NCBI GenBank assembly: GCA_031292195.1
Contig: JARLHP010000004.1
Coordinates: forward strand, 1 to 50,213
Length of the DNA: 50,213 bases
Direction of reading: 5' to 3'
Origin: Syntrophobacteraceae bacterium
Lineage (GTDB): Bacteria > Desulfobacterota > Syntrophobacteria > Syntrophobacterales > Syntrophobacteraceae
Shown: piece by piece, positions 26,161 to 35,009 of the stretch
How positions within the stretch are numbered: position 1 is the stretch's first letter
How the letters are laid out: the number at the start of each line of letters is the position of its first letter
Program-made: the position numbers and the translations under genes
The notes under the pieces: generated by a model
Databases searched by the model: none
Told to the model about the DNA's origin: nothing
What the model saw: only the letters and a program-made list of their open reading frames with translations

Positions 26161-26267
26161 TCATCGATCGTCAGGCAAATGCGTAGTCACCTTAAAGCGC
26201 CCGGGGCTTTAAAGCTCATCAAATTGAATAGTTTGACGTTTTGACGTCAGGACGTTATACCCTTGGT

Positions 26268-26501
26268 ATGAAGGCGAATAAAAAAAGAGCAACGATTTAT
26301 CTGGATTCCGAACTGCATCGGGCCCTCAGGCTAAAGGCGGCAGAGTCGGATTGTTCTATTTCGGCGCTTGTCAATGAGGCTGTGAGATCAAAACTGGCCG
26401 AGGATGCCGAAGATCTGGCCGCGTTTGAGGATCGGGCGCACGAGCCCAATCTGCGATTTGAGGATGTTCTGAAAGATCTGAAGCGGCGTGCCAAAATATA
26501 G
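26268..26501 (+). CDS. CopG/RHH-type antitoxin
   Basis: A 77-residue protein starting MKANKKRATIYLDSELHRAL. The RATIYLD segment is the beta-strand of a ribbon-helix-helix DNA-binding domain, followed by helices containing ALRLKAAESDCSISALVNEAV and an acidic, Leu-rich tail that would bind the toxin. The upstream TTTGACGTTTTGACGTCAGG holds repeated TGACGT elements that may be its operator. Its stop overlaps the toxin gene by 14 bp. Confidence 0.85.
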   Translation: MKANKKRATIYLDSELHRALRLKAAESDCSISALVNEAVRSKLAEDAEDLAAFEDRAHEPNLRFEDVLKDLKRRAKI

Positions 26502-26748
26502 TGTTCTCATCAAGGCCTCCGCTGTAAAGGAAATCGAATCTATCGGTTCCAAACGGGATCGTCAGGCTATTGTCTCATTGATTGAAGCGCTCGCTGAAAA
26601 TCCGCGTCCACACGGTTGCGAGAAGCTCTCGGGCCAGGAAAAGTATAGACTGCGAAAAGGCCGATACAGGGTAGTATACTCAATCGGGGATCAGGAATTG
26701 ATCGTGTTCGTGGTTAAGGTGGGACATCGAAAAGATGTTTATCGCTGA
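26488..26748 (+). CDS. RelE-family toxin
   Basis: An 86-residue product beginning at GTG 26488 (VPKYSVLIKASAVKEIESI). It carries the RelE core: PRPHGCEKLSG, YRLRKGRYRVVYSI and a C-terminal VVKVGHRKDVYR, with Arg and Tyr residues used for ribosome-bound mRNA cleavage. It overlaps the antitoxin gene by 14 bp, implying coupled translation. A GTG start is accepted because no ATG exists in the conserved N-terminal region. The last 10 bp overlap the decayed hicA on the opposite strand. Confidence 0.88.
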   Translation: MPKYSVLIKASAVKEIESIGSKRDRQAIVSLIEALAENPRPHGCEKLSGQEKYRLRKGRYRVVYSIGDQELIVFVVKVGHRKDVYR

Positions 26749-26914: not shown

Positions 26915-27130
26915 TTAAACCGCCACCATCAGCGGCTTTTGCCCTTCATGTTTCGATAAAGCCATGACGGCCTTTTGATCTTCTGCCCAAAGCCATGCGG
27001 TTATGGCCTCTTTTATGTTCTCGAGCGCCTCTTTCTCGTCCCTCCCTTGTGAAACACATCCGGGAAGGGCCGGACACTCTGCAACCACCCAGCCATCTTC
27101 GGCTGCTTCAAGAGTGACATGGAAAATCAT
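26915..27130 (-). CDS. hicB: HicB-family antitoxin
   Basis: A 71-residue partial RNase-H-fold HicB protein: MIFHVTLEAAEDGWVVAECPALPGCVSQGRDEKEALENI. The sequence CPALPGCVSQG is diagnostic. It lacks the C-terminal DNA-binding helix of larger HicB proteins, as is common for the short type. The partner hicA downstream is broken, so this is a solitary antitoxin. The gene order hicB-hicA is used by many deltaproteobacteria. Confidence 0.88.
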   Translation of the reverse strand: MIFHVTLEAAEDGWVVAECPALPGCVSQGRDEKEALENIKEAITAWLWAEDQKAVMALSKHEGQKPLMVAV

Positions 27131-27563: not shown

Positions 27564-27591
27564 CAATTTGCCGTATGCGAAGGAGATTATT

Positions 27592-27861
27592 ATGCCTGCT
27601 ACTACTCGATTTGATTTGAAGATGGATGCGGAAGAAAAGGATATTGTTTCTCGCGCTGCCGCCTTAATGGGCACCACGATGGCCGCGTTCGTGCGCATGG
27701 CGGCTAAAGAGAAAGCACGCGAACTATTGGATCGGGAATCTCGCATCACGATGACAGCACAGGATTTCGATGCATTCACGACGGCGCTCGATGGGGCATT
27801 CACGCCCAATGCAGCTCTACAAAACGCGATGAACGCCGCGCGTGAGGTGAGGCGTGCTTGA
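27592..27861 (+). CDS. DUF1778 (TacA-like) antitoxin
   Basis: An 89-residue protein beginning MPATTRFDLKMDAEEKDIVSRAA. The strand TRFDLKMD plus helices (KDIVSRAAALMGTTMAAFVRMAA) is the DUF1778 ribbon-helix-helix fold. The C-terminal ALDGAFTPNAALQNAM is the segment that in TacA-type antitoxins blocks the acetyltransferase. AAGGAG lies 7 nt upstream of the ATG. A perfect palindrome precedes it. It overlaps the toxin gene by 8 bp. Confidence 0.9.
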   Translation: MPATTRFDLKMDAEEKDIVSRAAALMGTTMAAFVRMAAKEKARELLDRESRITMTAQDFDAFTTALDGAFTPNAALQNAMNAAREVRRA

Positions 27862-28369
27862 AGAGCAATTTCTCGCTCCAAACCACCACGACCGTCAGGC
27901 TTTCAGCTCCGGTGTCGGGGAGCTTGACGAGTATCTTCGTCGTTTTGCGGCTCAGCAGAGCAAGAAAGGCATTACCGTCGTACGGGTATTGGTCGACACG
28001 GACACCCCCAGTACCATACTGGGCTACTATAGTTTGAGCGCCGCTCAAATCGATGCCGTCCAGCTTGATGAGCGTACACAGCAAAAACTACCGCGTTATC
28101 CGGTGCCTTGTTTTCGTTTGGGACGTTTGGCTGTGCATTCGGCTCATCACGGTCGCGGACTGGGGCGGCTCCTTATTGGTCTCGCAGTGGAGCGGTGTCT
28201 GGAGGCCCGGAAACATGTGGCCGCATACGCACTCGTGGTCGATGCGAAGGGAGAAAAAGCCAAGGCGTTCTACGAGCACTACGGATTTACGCCATGTCGT
28301 GATAGCCCTATGACCCTGTATCTACCGCTTGGGTGTATGAGTCAAGCGGCGCTTCCCGGGCGGCATTAA
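27854..28369 (+). CDS. GNAT acetyltransferase toxin (TacT/AtaT-like)
   Basis: A 171-residue GNAT-fold enzyme starting at GTG (VLEEQFLAPNHHDRQAFSSG). The acetyl-CoA pyrophosphate loop is in RLAVHSAHHGRGLGRLLIG and the catalytic tyrosine is in KAFYEHYGF. Paired with DUF1778 it belongs to the TA class that acetylates the amino group of aminoacyl-tRNA and stops translation. Which tRNA is unknown. The GTG overlaps the antitoxin's 3' end. The 3' end overlaps the convergent HAD gene by 4 bp. Confidence 0.9.
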   Translation: MLEEQFLAPNHHDRQAFSSGVGELDEYLRRFAAQQSKKGITVVRVLVDTDTPSTILGYYSLSAAQIDAVQLDERTQQKLPRYPVPCFRLGRLAVHSAHHGRGLGRLLIGLAVERCLEARKHVAAYALVVDAKGEKAKAFYEHYGFTPCRDSPMTLYLPLGCMSQAALPGRH

Positions 28370-29073
28370 TAGAAGTCATTTGCGTGCTTAATCCCCTGAA
28401 CTCCGGCAAGCTCCGCCAGGGTCGAGATTTCCAGGTCGGGACTTCCGGGGAGCATTTCCCGCTCCTGCCCGTAACGATTGCACCAGACGGTTTTCATCCC
28501 GAACACCGAAGCGCCGTGAGCGTCCCACGCGTTGGAGGATACGAAACAGACAGCATGCTTCTCCAGGGACAGCGAATCGAGGGCGATCCTGTAGACGGAA
28601 GGGTGCGGTTTATAGATTCCCGCGGCCTCGATCGAGAGAATCGCGTCGAGAAGCCGGTCGATACCCGTTGCCTTCGCAGCCGCCTCCAGCATTTGCGGCG
28701 TTCCATTGGACAGAATTGCGGTTTTGAGTCCACCGGATTTAAGACGCTCGATCGCGGCCGGAACTTCGGGAAAAACATCCAGGGTCCTGTAGAGGTTCAT
28801 GAGCTTGTTGCGCATTGCCGCATCGACAATTCCAAGAGACCTCATCGCATAATCCAGGGCGTCGCCGGTAATCCGCCAGAAATCCTCATGGCGCCCCATG
28901 AGGGAGCGGAGCCAAGTGTACTGAAGCTGTTTATCTCTCCATATTTTCGAAAGCGAATCGGACTTTTCCCCCAGTTCGTCCCGGCAACGGGCCACGGCTG
29001 AATTGAAATCGAACAGGGTCCCGTATGCATCGAAAACGCATCCCTTGATCCCGTGGAGCGCGCCTTGGGTCAT
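28366..29073 (-). CDS. Haloacid dehalogenase-type II hydrolase
   Basis: A 235-residue HAD-superfamily enzyme close to L-2-haloacid dehalogenases. The nucleophile Asp is in GCVFDAYGTLFDF, the second motif is ILSNGTPQML, and the lysine/acidic motifs are in KPHPSVYRIALD and CFVSSNAWDAHGA. It would hydrolyse 2-haloacids, though many relatives act on other substrates. AGGAG precedes the ATG. It is 15 bp downstream of the DsrE gene, hence part of the operon with the selenoprotein. Confidence 0.88.
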   Translation of the reverse strand: MTQGALHGIKGCVFDAYGTLFDFNSAVARCRDELGEKSDSLSKIWRDKQLQYTWLRSLMGRHEDFWRITGDALDYAMRSLGIVDAAMRNKLMNLYRTLDVFPEVPAAIERLKSGGLKTAILSNGTPQMLEAAAKATGIDRLLDAILSIEAAGIYKPHPSVYRIALDSLSLEKHAVCFVSSNAWDAHGASVFGMKTVWCNRYGQEREMLPGSPDLEISTLAELAGVQGIKHANDFY

Positions 29074-29088
29074 TTGATCTTCTCCTGT

Positions 29089-29433
29089 TTAAATGGTCAA
29101 AAGGGGTTTCCTGTCCTTTATTATCTCGGTTAGCGGCTGTCCCCAATATTTCACCTCTATACCTAAGCTTTCCAGCTTTTCGGTGACGCCCAATTGATCC
29201 GCGCATGCTTTGCACGCCGAGATCTTCCCCCCCGCTGCAAGCAGCTCCTTAATTTTGACTTGTATCTCAGGATTTTCGTCCACGAGTTTGGCCGTCGATC
29301 CCCATACAATGACAGTGACTTCTTTCCACCATCCTTTCTTGAGGGCGTTGGTAGCGTACATGAATACCATTTTGTCCGCCGTAACCGGATCGCTGTTTGT
29401 CCACAGAATATAAAGGTGATCCTTGTTTTCCAT
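29089..29433 (-). CDS. DsrE-family sulfur-relay protein
   Basis: A 114-residue single-domain DsrE-fold protein (MENKDHLYILWTNSDPVTADKMVFMYATNAL). Cys74 and Cys77 form an ISACKACADQLGV motif at the position of the sulfur-carrying cysteines of DsrE/TusD relatives. Such small proteins carry persulfide sulfur or act as redox partners in the cytoplasm. AAGGAG is 6 nt before the ATG. It begins 29 bp after the selenoprotein stop, so a redox link with that UxxC protein is plausible but inferred. Confidence 0.85.
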   Translation of the reverse strand: MENKDHLYILWTNSDPVTADKMVFMYATNALKKGWWKEVTVIVWGSTAKLVDENPEIQVKIKELLAAGGKISACKACADQLGVTEKLESLGIEVKYWGQPLTEIIKDRKPLLTI

Positions 29434-29462
29434 CCCAGACTCCTTCGCACAACTTACTTTTT

Positions 29463-30677
29463 TCAGGCCTGATCCATCGGGATCAAAAACATCGCCCCGG
29501 TGCGCCGGAGCGCAGTATCCTTCGACTTTATGCAGCGCTCCTTCACTATCCTTAAAACATGACCCGCCGCCGTCTTTTTCCAGAACCAGCGCTTGAATTC
29601 GTCACTGGTCGGGCAGTTGGTCCCTGGCCGGGCTGTCAGCGCTTCGAAGTAGAAGGCCGTGAGGTCTTGAACCGCAAGACGGAGCGCCACGGCCGGCGAC
29701 AGGTCCGCAATGGCGGACTCTGTAAGGTCCTGAAAGGCAAAGGAATAGATAAGCTCCATGGTCGAATCCGGCGCAAACTCTCCTACCGCCGTTCGGTCAT
29801 GCTTCTGGACGCTCAGATCGTACCAGGGGCGAAGCTCGGCAACTTCCCGTCTGAACGCCTCAGGAAGGTTCTCCGCGCCGGATTGCTCCCGTGGTCGGGC
29901 AGCGAAATTGATGGGGCAGGCCCAGCCTTCGACCGCCTGGCTGGAATCGGCCGCCCCGGGCTCCTCTTCGGGGAAATCAACCAGAATCGGGCCTTCGGCG
30001 GCATCGAGAAGCTCCAGGGCCGCAACCAGCACCCGGCGCTGAAACGGGGGGTTTTCAGGCGCCCCCAGAGGACGGCCTAGCGCGAAGGGTACCCATAGAG
30101 CCCTTGGCGGTCGAATCGCCTCCGTGTGCTTCCGGATCAAACTGATCTGGGTAGTCGGAATGCTGTCCGATTCGAGATAATGCGCCAGCGCGCCAACGGC
30201 GCGCGTGCAATACGGTCATACAGGCGCCAGAAAGGCCGCATCCACTCCATCGGCGGCAAGCAGTCGCGCCAGATGGTGCGCAGTCGGCTCCATTTGGCTC
30301 GGATCGCTAGCCCCCATGAACGAATAATGGTAGGCGGCCACCGACCCGATCACGCCTTCGGCGGCCAATTCTCGCAACCGGTCCAGGGGAAACACCACAT
30401 TCCAGTCCCGCTGAAAACCAAGGCGGTCGAAGTTGGTGGAGACATGGGTCATAACCAGGTCTCCGGCCTTGATGTCACCCGGTATTACCCGATAGTCGCC
30501 GGTCATTCCCTCAAAGGGGCGATCGCCTCTGCGATGGAGCCCCGCTGTGGAGATGATCGCCACCCGCCGCTTGGAAAGCGGCAGGCCGGCCGCCCATGGC
30601 TGGTTTGTAAACGAAGGGCAGGATAGTTGCCTGAGATGCGAGCGCATAGGCGCCTCCATCCGGTCGAGTCGTGCCAT
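29463..30677 (-). CDS. GrdB/PrdB-like selenoprotein with in-frame UGA (Sec154)
   Basis: One 404-residue reading frame if the TGA at 30216-30218 is read as selenocysteine. Residues 92-125 (DWNVVFPLDRLRELAAEGVI; AAYHYSFMG) and ADGVDAAFLAPV-U-PYC match the selenoprotein B family of glycine/betaine/sarcosine/D-proline reductases. The stretch after the UGA continues with TRAVGALAHYLESDSIPTTQ and IRPPRALWVPFALGRPLGAP, in frame, without another stop. A perfect hairpin lies 11 nt after the UGA. The start (30675-30677) follows AAGGGAG. Known relatives cleave C-N bonds with selenium; this one's substrate is unknown. The next genes are DsrE and HAD. Without Sec, the two halves look like two broken genes. 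Confidence 0.85.
30188..30218 (-). promoter_or_regulatory. Candidate bacterial SECIS element and recoded UGA
   Basis: Minus-strand order: UGA (30218-30216), 11 nt, stem GCGCGCC (30204-30198), loop GUU (30197-30195), stem GGCGCGC (30194-30188). The apical loop starts with G, 18 nt after the UGA. This fits the known pattern of SelB-binding bacterial elements, in which a short loop with an early G sits about 16-37 nt downstream. Confidence 0.75.
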
Positions 30678-31084
30678 ATTGATCTCCCTTAATCAAAATA
30701 TGCTCATGGGATGGCCGGCGGCTTGAAATCGATCGGGGCTTTGCCGTCGGCTTACTGTTGTCTCGCATGTCCTCGCTTTCCTTACTCTGCTCCAGCGCTC
30801 GCCACACTTCCCGGCAGATACCTGCCGGGTGGCGGCGGATTTCATCTCGATGATCTGTTAGCAATTATAGGTTACTCAAGCAAGTACCGCTGTAACAAAC
30901 GCTACATTCTACTTTCAAATTTCGGCGCTGTTGCCTTCGTTTACGGGGAAAATCGCTCTGGAGCCTGTTCGGGATGCCAACTTTCAAGATTGTAGCCCTC
31001 GCTACAGAAGTTTCTTTCTTTTGGATATATTCTTTTTGCCGATAGTCAAAATCCAGCGGTTTCGAGGAGGGGAGGTGACGAGAA
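30678..31084. other. Intergenic region between divergent genes
   Basis: About 400 bp between the selenoprotein start and the small zinc-ribbon-like gene. It should hold both promoters; no gene or repeat was recognised. Confidence 0.5.
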
Positions 31085-31210
31085 ATGCCAAAGTGTGGAA
31101 TTTGCGGTGGTGATGCCCCGAAACAACCCTGCATTACGGAAGAGGGTAAGTGCGATTTGTGCGGAAGGAAGGTAGTCCTCGAGGAAAATTCGGTGAAGAA
31201 GGAAAAGTAG
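31085..31210 (+). CDS. 41-residue CxxC zinc-ribbon-like protein
   Basis: ATG at 31085 is preceded by GGAGGTGACGAGAA, a strong ribosome site. The protein reads MPKCGICGGDAPKQPCITEE, then GKCDLCGRKVVLEENS and a lysine-rich end, with a TAG at 31208-31210. Two CxxC pairs (Cys4/7 and Cys23/26) plus Cys16 can bind one zinc or an Fe-S cluster. It is divergent from the selenoprotein operon and upstream of a Crp/Fnr gene. No named family is assigned; it is short enough to be missed by standard length cut-offs. Confidence 0.75.
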   Translation: MPKCGICGGDAPKQPCITEEGKCDLCGRKVVLEENSVKKEK

Positions 31211-31507
31211 AACTTTCAGCCGGGGCGGTTTAGATTTTCTCTTCCTCGGAAGAGGCGAAAGGAAAGCGGCCGCCCTGGCCCTTTTTCGAAGAAGCATTAC
31301 CTCCAAAATCCTACGAGAATGGTGATAATGATTTGTGGGGCGCAGAGTGGCGCCCGGCTTCTTCCTCGGTTCGGACATTGGTTTATACCGGAAAGGGCCA
31401 TTCATAATTTCTCCCGCGAGCGACAGTAAATTTGTTATCAATGGTTAAATCGACGGTCTTGATCAGTGCTCTCATGGCAGGGTCATAATCCGCAGAAAGG
31501 TTACGCG

Positions 31508-32212
31508 ATGGGATGCCTTTGCGAACAGTTGGCAGGAAAAGACTTACAGGTAACAACCATTTGCGTCGGGAGCTTGTGGATTTTCGAGAACCTGCGGCCT
31601 GAAGAAAAGAATGCTTTGGCCGAAGGGGCGCTCAGAAAAGTGTACGATCGGGGAGAGGCGATTTTCACTCAGGGCGATGAGGCCACACAAATGTTTTTGC
31701 TCAAAGCCGGCAGAGTGAAATTAAGTAAGATCATGGAAGATGGCGCGGAAATCACCCTGGATATGCGCAAAGCGGGTGATTTTTTAGGTGAAAACATGCT
31801 CAGTGAAGATATCCAATATCCAGTGACGGCCTGGTGTTTGGAAAAAACACTGGTCTGCGGGTTTGGCAAAAGTGGTTTTGAGAACATCGTGTTGCAATAC
31901 CCGAACATCGGCCTGCAGGTAATAAAAAATCTCAGCAACCGGATCAACTGGCTCACCACCCGTATGGGAGGCATGTCGATCACTAACCTGGAAGAACGTC
32001 TCCACAGGGTGCTCATCAGTGTTGCGCGCGAGCACGGGTTCAGTAGCCCGCGAGGTTTTGTCATTCATTTTCCTCTTACCCATGAAGATTTGAGTTTTCT
32101 AGTGGGCGCCCATCGCGTGAGCATCACACGGGCAATGAAAAGCCTTAGAGAATCCGGAAAAATAATTCAAGAAGGCAAAACCCTCACATTACCTGATGCG
32201 AATTTTCAGTAA
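31508..32212 (+). CDS. Crp/Fnr-family transcriptional regulator with N-terminal cysteines
   Basis: A 234-residue regulator. The N-terminal cyclic-nucleotide-binding-like beta-roll spans about residues 20-140 (GEAIFTQGDEATQMFLLKAG), followed by a dimerisation helix and a winged helix (THEDLSFLVGAHRVSITRAM). Cys3, Cys5 and Cys19 in MGCLCEQL and TTICVG, plus Cys110 and Cys117, resemble the extra cysteines of FNR-type Fe-S sensors, although spacing differs from E. coli FNR. A redox or nitric oxide signal is therefore possible. The start at 31508 has AAAGG upstream. It is convergent with the sensor kinase. The target genes are unknown. Confidence 0.9.
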   Translation: MGCLCEQLAGKDLQVTTICVGSLWIFENLRPEEKNALAEGALRKVYDRGEAIFTQGDEATQMFLLKAGRVKLSKIMEDGAEITLDMRKAGDFLGENMLSEDIQYPVTAWCLEKTLVCGFGKSGFENIVLQYPNIGLQVIKNLSNRINWLTTRMGGMSITNLEERLHRVLISVAREHGFSSPRGFVIHFPLTHEDLSFLVGAHRVSITRAMKSLRESGKIIQEGKTLTLPDANFQ

Positions 32213-32381: not shown

Positions 32382-35009
32382 TCACCCCGCTCTTTTGTCT
32401 TTTGCCTTTTCCACGCCGACCGGCCAAACCGCCCTTATCCTGGCGCCCTTTTTCAAAGCCGATTCCATGAAGAGTTTCCCCCCGGAGATTTCGGCCCTCT
32501 CTCGCATGCCGATTAGCCCCAGACTTTTGGCCGTGGTGGATTTTAGCACCGAGTCCAGATCCATGCCTTTGCCGTCATCGCTTATTTCCAGCTCGATGTA
32601 TCCGTTTTTAAGGGCCACACGAACGTCTATCCATTCACCACCGCTGTGTTTGCAGGAATTATTGAGCGCCTCCTGGGCAATTCGGAACATGGCGGTCTTC
32701 AAACCTTCCGGGATATCTTCCTCGGTGATCTCCCCCTCCAGTTCTATATGGAATTTCGTGTAAACCGCCAGCAGTTGCTGCCGATACCATTCAAGAGCGG
32801 CCAGAAGCCCGCGACTGGTGAGCACCGTCGGTTTTAGGCCCATGTACATGGTCCTGGTTTCATCGATTGAGCGCTGCATGACCGGAATGAATTCCTCCAG
32901 CAGTTTCTTTGTCTTTTCGGCCTTTTCTTCTCGTACCACGATCAGGACATGCTCCATGCGAAACTTCAGCGCGGCCAATGTTTGTCCGATGGTGTCATGT
33001 AAATCCGAAGCCAGTCTCCTGCTTTCGTTTTCCTGGACTTCGATCAGTTGGGAAGGCACCAGGCGCAGTTTTTCGTAGGCCGCTTCCAAGGAAGCGGTTC
33101 GCTCCCGGACTCGCGTTTCGAGCACTTCATGCGACTTGAGAAGCTGCTTCTCCATCTGTTTTCGCTCGGTGATGTCTTGAGCCAGGATGGCGATATCGCC
33201 TCCCATCCGGACCATCGCCAAGCGGAACCATGTCGGCTTCGGCAGGCAAGCGCCGGAAAAAAGGTCTTCTATTACCCGGGTCTCACCGGTTTCGGCCACA
33301 TGCCGGGATGTTTCAAAAAACGAGGAGGAGCGATGTTCGGGATAAACATCCAGCAGCCTCCGGCCCACCACGTCCCTGCGATCGTCGCCGCTCATGCGGG
33401 CCACCGCCGGATTCTCGTAGACCCAGGTGAAGTCGATGATGCTCCCCGCATCGTCGCGGACCGGTCTTAGGATGGTGAAGCCGTCGGGGGAAAGCTCCTG
33501 CGCCACCCGGAAGCGCTCTTCGCTCTCCCGAAGAGCTTCCTCGGCCTCTTTGCGCTGGGTGATGTCACTGGCCGTGCCAAACCATTCCACAATCTCCTGG
33601 TTGGCATCCATGAGCGGAATCGCTCTGGCGAACCGCCACCCGGAGCTTCCGTCTTTCCGTACGAACCGATATTCGTGCTCAAATACGCTTTTGTTGCGGA
33701 TGGATTCGTTGACTTTGGCCAGCAAGGCCGGTTGATCGTCGGGGTATATGCAACTCCTCAGCCAGAATTCGCCAGGGTTCCGCTTATCTTGAGTGGAATC
33801 CCGGCCAAAGAGGCGGCGGATCTCTTTCCAATCCGGGCCTATTTGATAAATGGCGTCCGAACTGGCCTGAAGAAGCGCCCGGAACCGTTCCTCGCTCCGT
33901 CTCAACTCCTCGACAATTTGAGCCCGCTCGATTATGTCCGCCGTCTGCCGCGCCAGCATGTCCAGCAGCCGCAGCGCCCTCTCATCCAGCTGCTTTTTTG
34001 CCTTGTAATGGGTTGAAAACACCCCCACCATTTGCTCCGACCGGCTCATGAGAGGGGTGCACTGAACCGTTTTCACTCCGGTCTTACGCATCATTTCCAG
34101 TGCCGGTGTGCCGACCAGCAATGGGCTTTCTTCAACGTCCAGGATTATGGTGCGTTTTCGACGCCTGAGCACCGCGGAGCAAGCTCCCTGGCCCCTGCAG
34201 GCCTGGTTCCAGCAGTTGGACCACCATTGCGGCAACCCGTGCTGTGCACCGAGTTGAAGGGTGGATGTCTCTTTGTCGAAAAGCTGAATGACGCCAAAAT
34301 CCGCGCCGGAAATGGCTACCGCCGCTTCCACTATTGCGCCCAGTACCGGCGTCAGGGCGCCCTCCTTGGCGAAAATGGAACCGATGTTTTGCAGTCGCGT
34401 CATGGCCTCCAACTCGGCCCGCAACTGCTCCTCTTTCTCCACCAGTTTTTTCTCGGCACTCTTACGATCGGTGATATCGACAAAAAACAGGCGCCACCCT
34501 TTCAGCTTCCGTTCCTCGTCGACTTCGGGCGCAAGCTCCAGATGAATGAACGCTTCCGTCTCCCCGTTTCCGACGGTCCGCAGCGTACAGGTTCCCTTTT
34601 CCCCTTTTGCCGCATGGTGCATGCAAGTTTGGAACTTCCCCCGATCCTCGGTGTGGATGAGTGCGCTGAAGGCAAGATTGGTTGGAAGCTGGTCGGAAAT
34701 CCCCAGTTTTTCCCGCGCGGCGATGTTTGCCCGGGCGATCAAACCGTCGCGGGTAAGGTCAAGATACCCCATGGGGGCGAACTGATACAGGGCGGCGTAT
34801 CTGTTTCTCGATTCCTGCAATTCGTTTCTGGCGGCTCGAAGCTCCTCGTTCTGGAGCTCCAGTTCGATCTGGCGCATTTCCAGTTCGCGGACCAGCATCA
34901 TCAAGTCCGAATCCGCAGGATCTTTGCTCTCCTCGTTTCGATTCTTGAGGACTTCTTCGGCCCTTTGGCGAAGCGCATCGAGCTTGTCGCCGAAATGTGT
35001 GTTGTCCAT
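32382..35009 (-). CDS. PAS-GAF-PAS-PAS sensor histidine kinase (NarL-partner type)
   Basis: An 875-residue cytoplasmic sensor with no predicted membrane segment. A coiled coil (residues about 35-75) leads to PAS1 (about 70-190), GAF (about 215-370), PAS2 (about 378-500) and PAS3 (about 505-635). The HisKA_3 dimer region carries His671 in SDLHDTIGQTLA. The ATPase follows with AQEALNNSCKHS, SDDGKGMD and SLGLIGMRERA. This is the UhpB/NarX-like kinase class that phosphorylates LuxR/NarL-type regulators. No response regulator is adjacent. The start follows GGGAG. It may sense a soluble redox or ligand signal. Confidence 0.9.
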   Translation of the reverse strand: MDNTHFGDKLDALRQRAEEVLKNRNEESKDPADSDLMMLVRELEMRQIELELQNEELRAARNELQESRNRYAALYQFAPMGYLDLTRDGLIARANIAAREKLGISDQLPTNLAFSALIHTEDRGKFQTCMHHAAKGEKGTCTLRTVGNGETEAFIHLELAPEVDEERKLKGWRLFFVDITDRKSAEKKLVEKEEQLRAELEAMTRLQNIGSIFAKEGALTPVLGAIVEAAVAISGADFGVIQLFDKETSTLQLGAQHGLPQWWSNCWNQACRGQGACSAVLRRRKRTIILDVEESPLLVGTPALEMMRKTGVKTVQCTPLMSRSEQMVGVFSTHYKAKKQLDERALRLLDMLARQTADIIERAQIVEELRRSEERFRALLQASSDAIYQIGPDWKEIRRLFGRDSTQDKRNPGEFWLRSCIYPDDQPALLAKVNESIRNKSVFEHEYRFVRKDGSSGWRFARAIPLMDANQEIVEWFGTASDITQRKEAEEALRESEERFRVAQELSPDGFTILRPVRDDAGSIIDFTWVYENPAVARMSGDDRRDVVGRRLLDVYPEHRSSSFFETSRHVAETGETRVIEDLFSGACLPKPTWFRLAMVRMGGDIAILAQDITERKQMEKQLLKSHEVLETRVRERTASLEAAYEKLRLVPSQLIEVQENESRRLASDLHDTIGQTLAALKFRMEHVLIVVREEKAEKTKKLLEEFIPVMQRSIDETRTMYMGLKPTVLTSRGLLAALEWYRQQLLAVYTKFHIELEGEITEEDIPEGLKTAMFRIAQEALNNSCKHSGGEWIDVRVALKNGYIELEISDDGKGMDLDSVLKSTTAKSLGLIGMRERAEISGGKLFMESALKKGARIRAVWPVGVEKAKDKRAG

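Follow-up and report, generated by a model that had tools for sequence, protein, structure and literature searches.

A gene on the minus strand of a 50,213-nucleotide stretch of DNA from a Syntrophobacteraceae bacterium (assembly GCA_031292195.1, contig JARLHP010000004.1, positions 1 to 50,213; hereafter the window) encodes a selenoprotein and belongs, as a founding-type member, to a long-form clade that stands apart within the GrdB/PrdB superfamily. Judged by sequence comparison, the long form belongs to this superfamily, yet it appears to be neither a D-proline nor a glycine reductase, and the enzyme seems to work without the usual pyruvoyl partner. The joint reading proposed here, in which UGA 154 is decoded as selenocysteine (Sec) in a partner-free long-form clade that would carry out reductive attack on small electrophilic substrates, is one that we regard as evenly balanced between holding and failing. 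The features of the locus are collected in Table 1.

Table 1. Features of the selenoprotein locus in the window.
Feature	Coordinates	Strand	Basis
PrdB-like long-form selenoprotein gene, 404 aa, Sec at residue 154	29463..30677	-	Translation with TGA = U, PrdB profile, relatives
In-frame UGA, Sec154 of the U-P-Y-C-T motif, with Cys157 as putative resolving residue	30216..30218	-	Codon kept in relatives
bSECIS-like hairpin: 7-bp stem, 3-nt GUU loop, 11 nt 3' of the UGA	30188..30204	-	Folding, codon and covariation tests
DsrE-like protein, 114 aa, C-x-x-C (CKAC)	29089..29433	-	PF02635 27.1 bits (cut-off 22.7); 2fb6 98 bits
L-2-haloacid dehalogenase homologue, 235 aa	28366..29073	-	TIGR01428 219.6 bits (cut-off 125.4); DehIVa 2no4 209 bits
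CRP/FNR-type regulator, divergent, upstream of the operon	31511..32212	+	PF00027 and PF13545 above cut-off

The UGA codon and its conservation

The gene opens with an ATG at 30677, directly 5' of which a ribosome-binding-like GGGAG was read from the sequence, and closes with a terminal TGA at 29465-29463; the UGA at codon 154 is its single internal stop. The sequence-only reading had described two minus-strand frames in register over one TGA, family conservation continuous across it and a U-x-x-C motif, and all of this was confirmed: the coordinates are exact, UPYC stands in the translation, and the TIGR04483 (PrdB) profile spans residues 32-225 unbroken over the UGA (E 7.5e-28). Taken alone, the stretch before the UGA matches this profile with E 2.4e-22; the remainder, beyond the UGA, has no match to the profile at E ≤ 1. 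Homology runs on past the UGA, where the same reading had named a normal stop in homologues, with no similarity beyond it, as the adverse outcome.

The C154 and C157 columns are invariant in an alignment of 45 sequences. A same-phylum search, made in a sample of 297 genomes, found a relative at E ≤ 0.001 in 73 of them, and TGA stands in the U-x-x-C motif in 30/30 same-phylum loci read, the window's own included. Nine aligned long forms served as query for a scan of the genome_contigs collection (84,980 species by its description), and the best 80 of 400 relatives were kept, giving 79 loci. Codon 154 is TGA in 79/79 of these loci from among the best 80 of 400, which come from several phyla, and the motif around it is U-P-x-C-T in 78 and U-A-M-C-T in one. 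Twelve whole genomes with long-form loci hold 28 matches, with one TGA in each. Counter-cases are a distant GrdB-like row that spans residue 154 without a stop (G035:C168, 26.9 bits) and one copy with an additional TAA at codon 128 (G026 = L013/L091). Among Pseudomonadota, 17/398 genomes have a match, mostly without a stop, and their distant homologues carry Cys (CPVCH/CPICH) at the Sec154 column in 13/14 loci and Sec in 1/14. The long-form relative L019 (G009:C1:66678-67879) lies in two reading frames with a break near residue 209, either real or an assembly error. Paralogous matches also occur within single genomes: four in G299, each along most of the long form, and three in G297, two of them in tandem.

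The hairpin downstream of the UGA

The perfect GC stem with its GUU loop reads as it had been described, GCGCGCC-GTT-GGCGCGC on the minus strand (30204-30188). Over 90 loci, the 42 nt past the UGA fold with a mean of -15.05 kcal/mol, compared with -11.22 for synonymous recodings, and z is below -1 in 65/90 loci and above 1 in 1/90. Among 87 distinct sequences, 549/609 stem cells are paired, where 500 shuffles reach at most 539, and 13 double changes were observed in the stem against a maximum of 5 in 500 shuffles. Shifting the 3' arm by -1 raises the double changes to 18, yet leaves just 191 paired cells, and the remaining slides pair at most 348. The middle stem pair fails in 39/87 distinct sequences, 38 of which have G-G, and the stem is therefore often broken at this point. 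Codon choice is extreme within the hairpin only: Thr is ACG in 79/86 (background 0.27), Arg CGC in 77/79 (0.30), Ala GCC in 75/84 (0.43), Gly GGC in 79/84 (0.40) and the second Gly GGG in 38/38 (0.22). The Val codon of the loop shows no strong bias to the GTT of the window (GTT 26/87, GTG 46). No Rfam family was found at E ≤ 1 in positions 28000-31500 of the window. The putative SECIS-like element is supported by both codon choice and compensatory changes.

Selenocysteine machinery of the host

The host assembly (5.5 Mb, 311 contigs, 94.9% complete) contains selA (626 bits), selB (368) and selD (386), all above cut-off, and a tRNA-Sec on contig C195 with the anticodon TCA assigned by ARAGORN; two weaker Rfam matches over cut-off in the tRNA-Sec search proved to be tRNA-Trp and tRNA-Leu. 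Every component of the machinery that had been proposed for checking is therefore present, and the genome is not one that lacks it, the other outcome named as adverse. The claim that the gene encodes a selenoprotein is thus upheld by the TGA in 79/79 relatives, the constraint on the hairpin and the machinery. The selD gene of the host (L047, G000:C272:19072-19995) has one in-frame TGA inside its profile match, and SelD itself is for this reason probably a selenoprotein.

A long-form clade of the GrdB/PrdB superfamily

The kinship with GrdB and PrdB that had been recognized from the sequence is borne out by matches to TIGR04483 and PF07355, and both matches have their limits. The TIGR04483 score, 97.6 bits, is below the PrdB cut-off of 300, and PF07355 matches residues 80-150 above its cut-off (32.2 bits, cut-off 22) over just the last 72 of 347 profile positions. 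TIGR01918 is below its cut-off as well (46.9 bits, 65.45), and no model in NCBIfam matches the selenoprotein above its own cut-off. The protein shares with PrdB the homology over residues 32-225 and Sec in U-x-x-C; the Peptoclostridium PrdB, with the motif UGTCH, is 34.9% identical over residues 33-215. Unlike PrdB, which has about 240 aa, it has 404, being extended at the C-terminus by about 165 residues; it falls in a separate clade, and its genome has no PF09338 partner. GrdB (PF07355, TIGR01917/01918) has the superfamily in common with the long form and differs by the short PF07355 match, the TIGR01918 score under cut-off and, again, the missing PF09338.

A tree of 35 proteins unites the 14 long forms in a single clade (100/99), separate from the short forms, the Cys forms and the Peptoclostridium PrdB, the placement of which is unsure because of its long branch. 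The clade was found in Thermodesulfobacteriota, Chloroflexota, Pseudomonadota and one Gemmatimonadota record, with SAR202 and marine alphaproteobacteria among its members. The AlphaFold model (pLDDT 89.6, pTM 0.90) is alpha/beta up to about residue 240, followed by a linker of low model quality and then, from about 268 to 397, by a mainly helical part. The PDB gave no match by sequence (best E 0.03, spurious) and no relative by fold at E ≤ 0.001. The Cys proteins of Pseudomonadota (about 310 aa) align their CPVCH/CPICH with Sec154; unlike the long form, to which they are about 30-38% identical, they lack the helical C-terminal domain and mostly have Cys for Sec. One of them, encoded on a plasmid, is named “glycine/sarcosine/betaine reductase selenoprotein B family” in RefSeq. 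The plasmid-borne relative L191:3863-4771 (“selenoprotein B family protein”) lies next to SelO in Roseomonas.

The missing partner subunit

GrdB and PrdB reductively cleave C-N bonds using a pyruvoyl partner. PF09338, the family of this partner (GrdE/PrdA-type subunits), has no match in the whole 94.9%-complete host genome (G000). As a positive control, the same search finds PF09338 in 9/15 genomes, where the matches lie mostly near GrdB-like genes. Among seven other long-form genomes, the family is absent in five (G047, G101, G254, G083, G013) and present in two (G026, G298), in both on a different contig from the long-form gene. The sequence-only reading had seen no GrdA/GrdC-like partner near the gene; for the GrdE/PrdA-type subunit, this absence extends genome-wide with a working control, and GrdA (PF04723) has no match in G000 in a search in which no control genome matched either. 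Given the missing PF09338 partner, the Sec/Cys pair probably acts alone.

The operon and the gene neighbours of relatives

The DsrE-like gene starts 29 nt past the selenoprotein gene and the dehalogenase homologue follows 15 nt past it, so the reported succession of DsrE and HAD genes holds, with PF02635 and TIGR01428 above cut-off. In the alignment with 2no4 the Asp, Arg, SN, K and SSNAWD segments are conserved, which we take to be the catalytic motifs of L-2-haloacid dehalogenases. The CRP/FNR-type gene is a possible regulator of the operon and is not conserved beside the genes of relatives in the 90 loci. Other genes nearby include a PAS/GAF histidine kinase upstream of the operon (32382-35009), a chromate transporter (PF02417, 24748-26160) and, packed against the operon at 26241-26748, 26915-27130 and 27589-28369, toxin-antitoxin-like genes: an RHH antitoxin-like protein (22.3 bits, below cut-off) with a ParE toxin, a HicB-like antitoxin, and a TacA-like antitoxin with a GNAT acetyltransferase.

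For comparison, 1107 open frames were clustered around 90 long-form loci, namely the 79 from genome_contigs (best 80 of 400), 10 taken from the phylum search and the window's own; two rows of this set are divergent, and at least one is a duplicate. The DsrE-like gene was not found in the other 89 loci (BLAST, E ≤ 1e-4). A HAD type II gene lies next downstream (16-62 bp) in 5/89 other loci (L075, L076, L077, L107, L143); four were scanned with TIGR01428 (cut-off 125.4), L075, L076 and L107 scoring above and L143 slightly below (118.7). These loci represent one clade, L143 and the window, and the tree therefore suggests at least three separate placements. At L076, a 1030-aa fusion of radical SAM, methyltransferase and DUF5714 (L076:11989-15078) stands two genes downstream of the long-form relative, past the HAD gene. 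MEDS/HTH (DcmR-type) regulators occur at 10/90 loci, among them the window's nearest relatives L051, L068 and L069. The arsenosugar gene arsS lies on the same strand within 10 kb at 6/90 loci (L053, L069, L074, L081, L122, L126), in L053 (G254:C66) 161 bp from the long-form gene, and ArsS is above the TIGR04167 cut-off in 5/5 tested (L069, L081, L122, L126, L053). The host genome has no ArsS above cut-off (best 58.7 vs 300). Genome-wide, ArsS is found in 39/59 genomes with a family match of at least 70 bits (14/73 with weaker or partial matches excluded) and in 46/238 others, counts that ignore kinship and Sec use; for the long form alone the association is weak (7/12 vs 78/285, p 0.027, kinship ignored). 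No neighbour is universal: the majority of the 90 long-form loci lack HAD, MEDS and ArsS partners altogether, and those from Chloroflexota, like most from Pseudomonadota, are flanked by unrelated genes.

Proposed mechanism and alternative explanations

It is proposed that the host SelA, SelB, SelD and tRNA-Sec insert Sec at UGA 154, guided by the downstream hairpin. Sec154 would then attack a small electrophile at a C-halogen, C-heteroatom or C/S-arsenic bond, giving a selenyl intermediate that Cys157 would resolve, and the Se-S bond would be reduced by a thiol or flavin donor. Within the operon, the dehalogenase might hydrolyse haloacids and the selenoprotein reduce a related substrate, while the CxxC DsrE-like protein could serve as thiol donor or carrier. 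We infer from these elements, for chemistry, substrate class and donor alike, a selenol/thiol reductase that acts on its own on small electrophiles, either organic or organoarsenic; its substrates are probably small toxic organic or arsenic compounds, and the reaction may be new. The neighbour classes (HAD, MEDS, ArsS) hint at organic electrophiles that carry halogen or arsenic, which agrees with the GrdB-like fluoroacetate system outlined in the available part of PMC10838667. According to the same excerpts, the selenoprotein FarB of this system is implicated in fluoroacetate reduction and resembles the long form as a GrdB-family selenoprotein with a proposed C-halogen cleavage by selenolate attack; unlike the long form, for which none was found, FarB uses the GrdE-like FarE and a GrdA/GrdC system, and it is without the CxxC residues, whereas the long form keeps Cys157 (PMC10838667).

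The main rival to a reductase is metal(loid) or selenide binding, in which the Sec/Cys pair would bind or buffer soft electrophiles (arsenite, mercury, selenide) or take part in thiol repair at large, without an organic substrate of its own. The U-x-x-C motif occurs in many redox proteins, and some loci have metal-related genes nearby: MerR-type regulators at 6/62 immediate neighbours of long-form genes, MerA-like oxidoreductases at 12/90 loci, and the arsenic genes. However, more than two dozen further residues outside the motif are invariant in the 45-sequence alignment, which suggests a substrate pocket, and the presence of haloacid dehalogenase and MEDS genes nearby speaks for organic substrates. 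We consider binding or buffering a serious possibility, short of an even one. A true D-proline or glycine-type reductase subunit with its partner encoded elsewhere would agree with the PrdB profile over the UGA and with PF07355 above cut-off, but is largely refuted and very improbable, given the 97.6 bits against 300, the lack of PF09338 where the same search succeeds in 9/15 genomes, the C-terminal extension and the separate clade. A broken gene or sequencing error, with the UGA as a real stop, would leave the two open frames seen here but hardly the TGA at codon 154 in 79/79 relatives (best 80 of 400) of several phyla, the synonymous-site constraint on the hairpin or the Sec machinery, and its probability is negligible. 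The frame would also be open under an altered code in which UGA means another amino acid, an idea with next to no likelihood when the gene's own terminator is TGA, homologues have Cys, not Trp, at the Sec154 place and the full Sec machinery is present.

Earlier records and significance of the family

GrdB and PrdB cleave a C-N bond reductively together with a pyruvoyl partner, according to the accessible text of PMC13188914; the stand-alone reductase proposed here would act without one. Ordinary annotation would probably split or misname the gene 29463-30677. The description of it as unannotated was partly right: the long-form clade has no model of its own in the NCBIfam and Pfam copies searched, but Sec “PrdB” proteins of pfam07355 were catalogued in 2005 and 2008, as the excerpts of those surveys state. 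These list 42 Sec and 1 Cys “PrdB” in the Sargasso Sea (PMC1088965) and 235 Sec and 110 Cys “PrdB” in GOS (PMC2398784); the accessible passages of PMC5029168 give 131 selenoproteins labelled “proline reductase”, spread over 110 organisms, and the available portions of the 2022 and 2026 reviews list the PrdB and GrdB families (PMC9312934, PMC13188914). In the accessible passages of these five papers no separate long form appears; other papers may describe the clade. The ocean proteins resemble the long form in pfam07355, UxxC and their origin from surface-ocean metagenomes, and differ in being called D-proline reductase, the excerpts giving neither a long form nor an analysis of partners or gene context (PMC1088965, PMC2398784). 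As SAR202 and marine alphaproteobacterial long forms were found, they may partly belong to the same clade. The name D-proline reductase, as used in the available text of the 2005 and 2008 surveys, does not fit the long-form clade. The widest version of the proposal, partner-free selenol-based reductive cleavage of haloorganics or organoarsenicals that also takes in a share of the ocean-survey “PrdB” selenoproteins, is in our view rather unlikely.

Recognition of a partner-free Sec branch would correct the assumption that a Sec “PrdB” means proline fermentation, and the clade gives testable substrates for a selenoenzyme family, namely haloacids and methylated arsenicals. If the proposal is true, then a widespread Sec-dependent clade, hitherto grouped with D-proline reductase, would have a new, partner-free chemistry.
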